In this document: positions 21,868-23,447 of the stretch, piece by piece
Layout of the letters: every line of letters starts with the position of its first letter
Position numbering within the stretch: the stretch's first letter is position 1
NCBI GenBank assembly: GCA_023269825.1
Contig: JAGDWI010000001.1
Span: 182,492 to 246,491, forward strand
Source of the DNA: Desulfurococcaceae archaeon
GTDB taxonomy: Archaea; Thermoproteota; Thermoprotei_A; Sulfolobales; Desulfurococcaceae
Direction: 5' to 3'
Length of the DNA stretch: 64,000 nt
Program-made: the position numbers and the translations under genes
The notes under the pieces: model-generated
What the model saw: the letters and a program-made list of their open reading frames with translations, nothing else
Told to the model about the DNA's origin: nothing
Database searches by the model: none

Positions 21868-21900
21868 AGCCAAGCCCCTTTAGGGCGGGGAGGAGGTCAG
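21868..21900. mobile_element. IS200/IS605-like terminal hairpin, solitary relic
   Basis: The plus strand reads AAGCCAAGCCCC, TTTA, GGGCGGGG, AGGAGGTCAG. A GC-rich arm, a TTTA loop, a GC-rich arm and a GGAGG-x-GTCA tail is the pattern I know from right ends of archaeal IS200/IS605 elements. The left arm looks about four bases short. No transposase or TnpB gene is within reach, so it is a leftover end or a deletion scar. It also supplies the TGA stop of the neighbouring minus-strand gene. It could double as a terminator for the convergent genes. Recognised from memory, not by search. Confidence 0.5.
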
Positions 21901-23123
21901 TAGAAATAATCTACTTTAATTCCCAGAATATCCGATATTAATTGCAATTCCTCCACGTGATCTCCGAGGACTAAAACATAGTGGTTTCCAATACTTTCAC
22001 TAACTATCTTACCCGCGTTTTTCAACTTTAATTTGACCTGTGTTCTACACATGGAGGGTGACCAGGAATGAGGCGTGATTTCGCCAACACCTAGCCTTGC
22101 AATAGATAAATTCGAGTCTAACCTGTAAACAGTTGCTTTTTCGCCAACCGGGTAATGTACTCTAACGCCTACTCCTCTTCCGCTTTCAAAGTGAGTGTAT
22201 AAACAGTAATTACCGGTCAAGCAACTTGTACAGTGTGCGAATACTACCTCGTCATTATTCACGTCAGCTGGATTAGCCATAAATACTGGTCTACCCGTAA
22301 CCCACGTAGCAATAGCCATTGAATATAATAGGGGGATATCTCCTTCACACGCTGCAGGAAAAAGCTCGCTATTTAGGAGAGATAATGCTAAACAAGCAGT
22401 AATATCATGTTCTTCTATTAGATCAAAACACTTGATTGTTAAACCCGATAACCCATATCTCCTAATGATGTTTTTCAAAGCACTGTATAGTCTTATTGCT
22501 TCTGAAACAGCGCCCTCGGGATTCTGTAGATCAACTATTTCAGCACCACTCAGGATTTTTCTAGTTAAAACAAAGTCTCCTCTAACTCTTTTTAACTCCT
22601 CATATAGTTCTCTAACCTCGATGTAAATTAATTCACCAAAACTTTTTGCTTTTATTTGATCTTCAGTTACTTTACTATATATGAGCCAAGGACTTACCCC
22701 TCCTATGACCCCGAATTTTCCAGTCCTTAGTCTAATGTATGCTTCAGATACTAGGTTAAGCTTAGCTACTACTTGTTTAAGGTTATCTATACCCATATAC
22801 TTTTTAGAGCGCACCCTAAAACCTCTACTCCTTAAGTATGCTAATGCTTCTATCGTTGCAGGTAAACTATTGTACTTATCCAGATAGAGAAGGTAGGTGA
22901 ATTGAGAATTCTCAGCGATCTTTGAGATTAAGTGTTCTGTTCCACCAGTAGCAACGAGTACTACGTGTATTAAACTATGTGGAACATTCTCAATGTTTTC
23001 ATCCGTTATCACACCTAGCAAAGATTCCCTGATAAATGGGTCAGATAGTAATTCCTCATGGTATTTTCTCCCAACACCAATTCCTAGCTTAGATGAAACA
23101 ATAGATAATAACAAGTTTTTCAA
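21897..23123 (-). CDS. L-fucose/arabinose isomerase-like protein, paralogue 2
   Basis: A 408-residue relative of the protein at 17230: LALSLLNSELFPAACEGD, VVFAHCTSCLTG, YTHFESGRG and GNHYVLVLGD line up with its C-terminal half, and GGTEHLISKI with its N-terminal half. The metal-site Glu, Asp and His positions are kept in both. It ends about seven residues earlier than its paralogue (LGIKVDYFY, then stop), and the stop codon lies within the IS-like end at 21891-21900, so the C-terminus may have been trimmed by that insertion. Starts at TTG 23123 with AAGGTG five bases ahead. Substrate unknown. Confidence 0.75.
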   Translation of the reverse strand: MKNLLLSIVSSKLGIGVGRKYHEELLSDPFIRESLLGVITDENIENVPHSLIHVVLVATGGTEHLISKIAENSQFTYLLYLDKYNSLPATIEALAYLRSRGFRVRSKKYMGIDNLKQVVAKLNLVSEAYIRLRTGKFGVIGGVSPWLIYSKVTEDQIKAKSFGELIYIEVRELYEELKRVRGDFVLTRKILSGAEIVDLQNPEGAVSEAIRLYSALKNIIRRYGLSGLTIKCFDLIEEHDITACLALSLLNSELFPAACEGDIPLLYSMAIATWVTGRPVFMANPADVNNDEVVFAHCTSCLTGNYCLYTHFESGRGVGVRVHYPVGEKATVYRLDSNLSIARLGVGEITPHSWSPSMCRTQVKLKLKNAGKIVSESIGNHYVLVLGDHVEELQLISDILGIKVDYFY

Positions 23124-23213
23124 GTAATCACCTTAATTGTAAATTAAACGTGTATTCTTATAATAAATAGCTCTTGAAACACTTGGTTTAGAAGTGTTTA
23201 AAGGCACATATAA

Positions 23214-23230
23214 CTATAACATTGTTATAG
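23214..23230. promoter_or_regulatory. Perfect 17-bp palindrome, likely operator
   Basis: CTATAAC-ATT-GTTATAG, two exact 7-base arms. It directly follows a CATATAAC TATA-like box (23207-23214) and lies 11 bases before the TTG of the small Cys-rich ORF, between TATA box and expected transcription start, the usual place for an archaeal repressor. The Lrp gene at 23448 is a possible source of the binding protein, but the site is not a typical Lrp consensus I can vouch for. Confidence 0.5.
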
Positions 23231-23241
23231 GGGGATTTGAA

Positions 23242-23358
23242 TTGAAAAACAATAGTAGAATAAAGAAGAATCCGCGAGAATTTAATGAAGAAGACTTATA
23301 TTATGAGCTAGCAGGAGATCAGTGCTCAGGTTGTCCTCTGAGAGGCATATGTGGATAA
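23242..23358 (+). CDS. Small Cys-rich protein (38 aa), unknown
   Basis: A short ORF from TTG 23242, preceded by GGGGGA (spacing about 7), a TATA-like box and a palindrome, so it has all the trappings of an expressed gene. The product is charged in its first 24 residues (RIKKNPREFNEEDLYYEL) and ends with GDQCSGCPLRGICG, a C-x2-C-x5-C cluster that could bind zinc, iron or an iron-sulfur centre with a partner. No family is recognised. The codons after its TAA on the plus strand are antisense to the Lrp gene and are not coding. It may also be the truncated head of a lost gene. Confidence 0.4.
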   Translation: MKNNSRIKKNPREFNEEDLYYELAGDQCSGCPLRGICG

Positions 23359-23447
23359 TGTATGGTAAAAATGTAAAAATTATACCCTGGAAACCCTTCT
23401 CCGAGAGGGAGTTTTTCCAATCTTTGTTCACGACTCCATTTAACTCA

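Follow-up and report, generated by a model that had tools for sequence, protein, structure and literature searches.

Bacterial IscR and SufR are Fe-S-sensing repressors of the suf and isc operons, whilst the Fur, PerR and Zur boxes, with their 7-1-7 inverted-repeat geometry, serve iron- and redox-related targets. At the level of individual proteins, the CxxCxxCC proteins of Pfam family PF03692 (YkgJ, FliB-type) are poorly understood, although a cysteine motif related to PF03692 binds a [4Fe-4S] cluster in FliB (PMC8598068). Zinc micro-proteins that carry C(P)xCG motifs are also known from archaea (PMC6562870, PMC10716476). For the Desulfurococcales, searches of an open-access library turned up no Fe-S regulon or regulator, nor did they yield a description of the micro-protein, operator or candidate regulator considered below.

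Here, we report on a 38-codon gene found within a 64-kb stretch of DNA (hereafter ‘the window’) from a hot-spring archaeon, the genome of which we call G000; a second species of the same genus, G003, serves as the closest point of comparison. We propose, at a probability of roughly 0.6, that the gene encodes an Fe-S- or metal-binding accessory micro-protein, placed under a lineage-specific Fe-S/redox regulon; we infer its role, its ligand and its regulator from sequence and comparison.

Results

The micro-protein gene runs on the forward strand from a TTG start at 23242 to a TAA stop at 23356-23358 (23242-23358 in all), and its product, LKNNSRIKKNPREFNEEDLYYELAGDQCSGCPLRGICG, ends in a C28-x2-C31-x5-C37 tail, the codons for which occupy 23323-23352. 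Upstream, on the same strand, a TATA-like element, GTTTAAAG, is predicted by sequence reading at 23196-23203, with a perfect 17-bp palindrome, CTATAACATTGTTATAG, beginning ~10 bp beyond it (23214-23230); a purine-rich Shine-Dalgarno-like GGGGGAT (23230-23236, forward strand) then sits 5 nt ahead of the TTG. Downstream, a hairpin, CCCTTCTCCGAGAGGG, followed by a run of T (23394-23416, forward strand), may mark the end of the transcript. No RNA element in Rfam matched at the locus. A phage origin for the micro-protein was considered and set aside, tblastn having returned weak and partial matches only.

Four of these elements, namely the C-x2-C-x5-C tail, the TATA-like box, the palindrome and the ribosome site, had been picked out by an initial annotation, which reasoned that short ORFs arising by chance seldom possess them all; each is indeed in place, and comparison carries the argument beyond chance. 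In G003, the ORF, ribosome site, start and palindrome follow one another in identical order, with the DNA further upstream having diverged. Over the 11 codons that lead up to the stop, ten of the 11 residues are identical between the two species, with a single replacement set against six silent changes, which argues for purifying selection on the tail. An alternative in-frame GTG at 23194 (giving 54 aa) was rejected, as the reading frame would cross the palindrome and the resulting protein is not conserved; we favour the start at 23242 because the ribosome site of G003, GAGGTGAT, and its start codon both align there. That the gene is real is therefore well supported by comparison, and regulatory context here allows even a 38-codon ORF to be identified as a gene.

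A first search, with the protein as query against 61 genomes, returned short ORFs with a matching C-terminus from members of the archaeal family to which G000 belongs; 17 of these were then combined into a profile, which placed homologues, whose absence had been named in advance as grounds for rejection, in 34 of the 40 genomes of that family (22 of the 23 of good quality). All members carry the C-terminal C-x2-C-x5-C motif, typically as CSxCP[LF][RK]GxCG, and the 17-sequence alignment shows no variation in the columns of C28, C31, P32 and C37. As defined here, the family comprises proteins of ~38-60 aa with a charged N-terminus and the C-x2-C-x5-C motif near the stop, a description that the product of the window ORF fits on each count. 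Most family proteins stop at the last cysteine or within a few residues of it, which indicates that the window ORF encodes a complete protein rather than the head of a longer one.

No model in Pfam or NCBIfam scores over its cut-off for the micro-protein; FhuF_C reaches 14.3 bits and EndIII_4Fe-2S 12.7 bits, both below cut-offs of 20.5, and the micro-protein has three cysteines where four are needed. It also fails the PF03692 profile, which its partner protein (see below) passes. Each micro-protein has a single C-x2-C-x5-C set, with the second C(P)xCG absent. Searching the sequences of the PDB with the micro-protein and PF03692 profiles gave no match. On these grounds, the family appears to be undescribed. 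Candidate homologues from outside the archaeal family were rejected, being motif-only matches in winged-helix-like proteins and radical-SAM tails. We observe separately that, in other families of the order, a CSxCPLxxxCG motif lies inside winged-helix-like proteins of ~100 aa (L210-L213 and L215), which call to mind the FeoC-like Fe-S regulators.

In most relatives, the micro-ORF is found directly 5' of a gene for a ~180-aa PF03692 (CxxCxxCC, YkgJ-type) protein, at a spacing of approximately -3 to +34 nt, such that the two often abut or overlap. This arrangement is usual rather than universal: the copy in the window stands ‘solo’, with its own promoter and no adjacent PF03692 gene, and G010, G019 and G027 likewise carry a micro-ORF unaccompanied by such a neighbour. 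The window genome also has a linked copy (C2:850585-850719, with the tail CARCIFKNFCGKFK), which precedes ykgJ (C2:850058-850561) in the usual manner. A PF03692 gene is present in all eight genomes of the genus; in those that were read, a short frame ending in a C-x2-C-x5-C tail, often of diverged sequence, comes before it. A solo copy was found in two of the eight. PF03692 orthologues of Bathyarchaeota, Nezhaarchaeota and Methanomethylicota have no micro-ORF.

Between G000 and G003, the solo copies agree at 16 of 26 C-terminal residues. They share 13-15 of the 26 with proteins of a different genus, g6, as against 6-8 with the linked copy that each genome also carries, and are thus not recent duplicates of the latter. 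Synteny between the two solo copies was considered and discounted, since they have just one neighbouring gene in common (42% identity), which lies ~4 kb off in G003. In the window, this neighbour occupies 21897-23123 on the reverse strand, divergent from the micro-ORF, and encodes a 408-aa protein with a weak match to the C-terminal part of L-fucose isomerase (the relative is found at L030:2142-3362).

The palindrome, CTATAACAnTGTTATAG, can be written as CTATAACA-T-TGTTATAG, a perfect 8-1-8 arrangement, and is the sole such site within the window. Its counterpart in G003 is likewise perfect, and is held at an equal distance despite the divergence of the flanking DNA. Whilst the expectation that a homologous ORF would be found in related genomes has been borne out, that of finding it at the same place holds in a narrower sense, as only two species combine a solo copy with a perfect palindrome. 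In three genomes of genus g6 (G012, G024 and G032), a palindrome with one mismatch in its 15-bp core lies 13-14 bp ahead of the micro-ykgJ operon; it is missing before the window genome's own ykgJ-linked micro-ORF, and before most linked copies outside g6.

Across 35 micro-ORF promoters, we found five sites with at most one mismatch as against 0.00 in dinucleotide shuffles, three of the five being from congeners, and ten with at most three mismatches as against 0.84. Genomic counts were controlled with a reversed pattern of equal composition: allowing one mismatch, the 17-mer gave nine sites in the genomes of the genus (reversed, 0); the exact 15-mer gave 14 across 40 genomes (reversed, 2); and 85 sites with at most one mismatch in 25 genomes compare with 21 for the reversed pattern, such that roughly a quarter of the one-mismatch sites may be background. 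Some of these sit inside genes, or ahead of unrelated genes for exported proteins (G021, G029), and part of the sites must accordingly be noise or have another use. Genus g15 provides an instance of this kind, with many one-mismatch sites located 50-110 bp ahead not of Fe-S genes but of genes encoding exported or membrane proteins (L227-L233 in G021; L251-L256 in G029), reflecting either a different use or chance. Taken as a whole, comparison provides good support for the palindrome as a regulon operator, with protein binding to it being predicted.

A search for the palindrome elsewhere in the genome, as had been recommended, shows that it recurs before other genes. Those beside the sites were read by eye, with 20 of them named by Pfam and the remaining names resting on our reading of the sequence; the 20 were hand-picked from amongst the nearest genes, and so speak to coherence rather than to formal enrichment. 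The palindrome is found upstream of sufC/B, sufS, NifU, NUBPL, hypF, hypE, wyosine radical-SAM, FTR1 and OsmC genes, and Pfam confirms SufBD, NifU_N, a cysteine-desulfurase-type Aminotran_5, NUBPL, HypF, a HypE-like AIRS protein and the Wyosine_form radical SAM amongst the targets, along with FTR1, OsmC, a sulfur transporter, Oxidored_q6, a lipoate ligase and a thioredoxin-reductase-type oxidoreductase. Amongst the genes so read is that for a SufC-type ABC protein, followed by SufB. Others are distributed over hypF (G000, G001, G002 and G029), hypE (G012 and G024), the wyosine radical SAM (G003 and G016), the FTR1 iron permease (G018 and G039), OsmC (G013 and G039), a molybdopterin-type radical SAM gene that neighbours an ARMT1-like gene (G000 and G016), and a PLP enzyme (G012, G018 and G034), along with a hydrogenase-type subunit and a sulfur transporter. 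In G000, G003 and G007, the palindrome falls 2-10 bp before the start of a gene for a small GNAT protein (PF14542; L081:685-1056, L076:3601-3960 and L171:~2017-2390). A further radical-SAM-like gene, intact in G006 and apparently split into two frames in the window genome, has a palindrome ~145 bp upstream (L080:2826-3648, L078:3415-4233).

As a test of prediction, sufC orthologues were fetched by protein alone: five of 12 promoters contain a site with at most two mismatches, where 0.02 would be expected, and of these five sites only that of G003 was known beforehand, the other four having played no part in defining the motif. Within the genus, five of the six sufC genes found, including that of the window genome, have the palindrome at one fixed position (at most two mismatches). 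A shared operator in front of suf genes, the hallmark by which an IscR/SufR-like Fe-S regulon may be recognised, is thus present here. A similar test on orthologous promoters removed trxB from the core targets, as a perfect site occurs only in G003, with a weaker one in G009.

The initial annotation had envisaged a metal- or redox-responsive micro-protein with its own operator. The cysteine-rich protein and the operator both stand, as does the connection to metal and redox functions, given the presence of this palindrome ahead of genes for Fe-S, iron, sulfur and hydrogenase functions; the operator, however, is not private to the micro-protein, but is a site of the regulon.

Turning to what might bind the operator, regulation by Fur was ruled out, since no Fur-family protein scores over cut-off in the eight genomes of the genus, where control profiles matched in 14 of 14 cases. 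One palindrome overlaps the start of a small helix-turn-helix (HTH) gene, the window genome's copy of which lies on the minus strand at G000:C1:~99880-100080 (L280; relatives, L263-L292). It encodes an XRE-type protein of ~110-135 aa, with an invariant Cys-Glu and CxxC, towards its N- and C-terminus respectively, that are common to most relatives; the copies in G011, G020 and G021 are without part of this cysteine set. In G000, G007, G016 and G022, a palindrome with at most two mismatches lies at or just before the start of the gene, and those HTH promoters that could be anchored yield eight sites with at most three mismatches, where 0.63 would be expected and the reversed pattern gives 0. An AF2 model of the protein is all-helical (pLDDT 85.6), and gave no significant match in a fold search of the PDB. 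A cysteine-bearing HTH protein, with the palindrome at its own start and within an Fe-S regulon, makes this the best candidate for the regulator. Judged as an autoregulated sensor of the IscR/SufR type, it has a site at its own gene and three invariant cysteines, with both DNA binding and a cluster predicted. We consider it likely, on sequence grounds, to be the autoregulated regulator, though another transcription factor could own the operator.

Discussion

Bringing these observations together, we propose a model for the locus. Iron or an Fe-S cluster is the most likely ligand of the three-cysteine, C-terminal tail of the charged micro-protein, with a fourth cluster ligand perhaps supplied by the PF03692 partner or by another molecule. 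Its ancestral role would probably have been that of a small partner for the downstream PF03692 protein, for example by completing, loading or protecting its cluster; in the window genome, a second copy is found by itself, with a promoter of its own. The palindrome between the TATA box and start, probably located at the transcription start, would serve as the operator, and repression is suggested by its position between TATA box and ribosome site. As the operator is common to SUF, hydrogenase-maturation, radical-SAM, and iron and sulfur genes, the micro-protein would be made along with the machinery of Fe-S supply. In this model, an HTH repressor would release the site on a change in its own cluster or thiols, in response to Fe-S supply or redox state, such that the micro-protein is produced together with the SUF proteins and the maturation factors of cluster enzymes; the same regulator would be autoregulated through the palindrome at its own start.

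Three cysteines, of themselves, are no proof of Fe-S binding, and their use in zinc or disulfide chemistry, which such a tail fits too, is possible. A stress-induced, zinc- or thiol-redox micro-protein with no Fe-S cluster, brought under common control with Fe-S genes by chance, would sit well with the OsmC-, flavodiiron- and thioredoxin-reductase-type targets, with their thiol and oxidant functions, and with the C(P)xCG motifs carried by known archaeal zinc micro-proteins (PMC6562870, PMC10716476). We nevertheless hold this to be unlikely, if deserving of some weight: the protein has one C-x2-C-x5-C set and no second C(P)xCG, its cysteines are spaced as are the final three ligands in known Fe-S motifs (the weak, below-cut-off FhuF_C and EndIII_4Fe-2S matches), and its partner gene encodes a PF03692 protein, the motif of which binds [4Fe-4S] in FliB (PMC8598068). 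An altogether different doubt attaches to the solo copy, which might be a drifting remnant, namely the operator, promoter and first cistron of a transferred or duplicated micro-ykgJ operon from which the second gene was lost. The usual position of the micro-ORF before a PF03692 gene, the nearness of the solo copies to the operator-bearing g6 version and their restriction to two of eight genomes all favour such an origin, and the suggestion that the ORF is the ‘head of a lost gene’, contradicted for the protein by homologues that stop at the same residue, may in this altered form hold for the operon, with its PF03692 cistron missing. As an account of the present-day copy, though, it appears distinctly improbable, since the ORF and its palindrome, ribosome site, start and stop have all persisted in two diverged species, and most changes in the motif are silent, all of which speaks for selection; and micro-ORFs without an adjoining PF03692 gene also occur in G010, G019 and G027.

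The palindrome might instead be a shared core-promoter sequence of the TATA or initiator type, recurring through base composition and functioning as no operator at all; it is AT-rich, it adjoins the TATA box, and AT-rich genomes hold many one-mismatch sites. Yet reversing the pattern, which leaves its composition unchanged, gives far fewer sites, dinucleotide-shuffled promoters yield almost none, and the targets are functionally coherent, which leaves this reading with very little probability. Finally, a chance ORF without product, to which the very short length and TTG start might point, is refuted by comparison, given the breadth of the homologues, the invariant motif and the conserved end, and we regard its likelihood as negligible.

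Returning to our preferred reading of an Fe-S- or metal-binding accessory micro-protein within a regulon, we also put forward, more tentatively and at somewhat less than even odds, a wider proposal: that a new class of Fe-S-sensing repressor, a small XRE-type HTH protein with Cys-Glu and CxxC elements, governs Fe-S assembly, hydrogenase maturation, and iron and sulfur genes in this archaeal family via TATAACAnTGTTATA, with a new family of Fe-S micro-proteins amongst its outputs. Were this correct, the 17-bp motif, first noticed in a single window, would give work on Fe-S homeostasis in these hyperthermophiles a testable operator, a list of targets and a candidate sensor, and would place in a functional context both the PF03692 proteins and a micro-protein family that passes no Pfam or NCBIfam cut-off.

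Set against known systems, the regulon most resembles those of IscR and SufR, in that one operator serves SUF, Fe-S and redox genes together with the gene for a regulator that has conserved cysteines; it differs in operator sequence, in its archaeal setting, in having an XRE-type HTH candidate rather than an Rrf2 (IscR) or SufR family protein, in targets that extend to hypF, hypE and molybdopterin genes, and in that sensing is, in our case, predicted from sequence. Fur, PerR and Zur boxes share the inverted-repeat geometry and the iron and redox targets, but belong to a family of regulators with no member over cut-off in the genus. The micro-protein has the very small size and cysteine motif of the haloarchaeal zinc micro-proteins, which have two C(P)xCG motifs, whereas here a single C-x2-C-x5-C lies at the extreme C-terminus. 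To the CxxCxxCC proteins of PF03692 it is tied by gene adjacency in most relatives, and by the [4Fe-4S]-binding motif of FliB (PMC8598068); it is not, however, itself a PF03692 protein, and the copy in the window stands apart from any such gene, under an operator that it appears to share with the Fe-S genes of its lineage.
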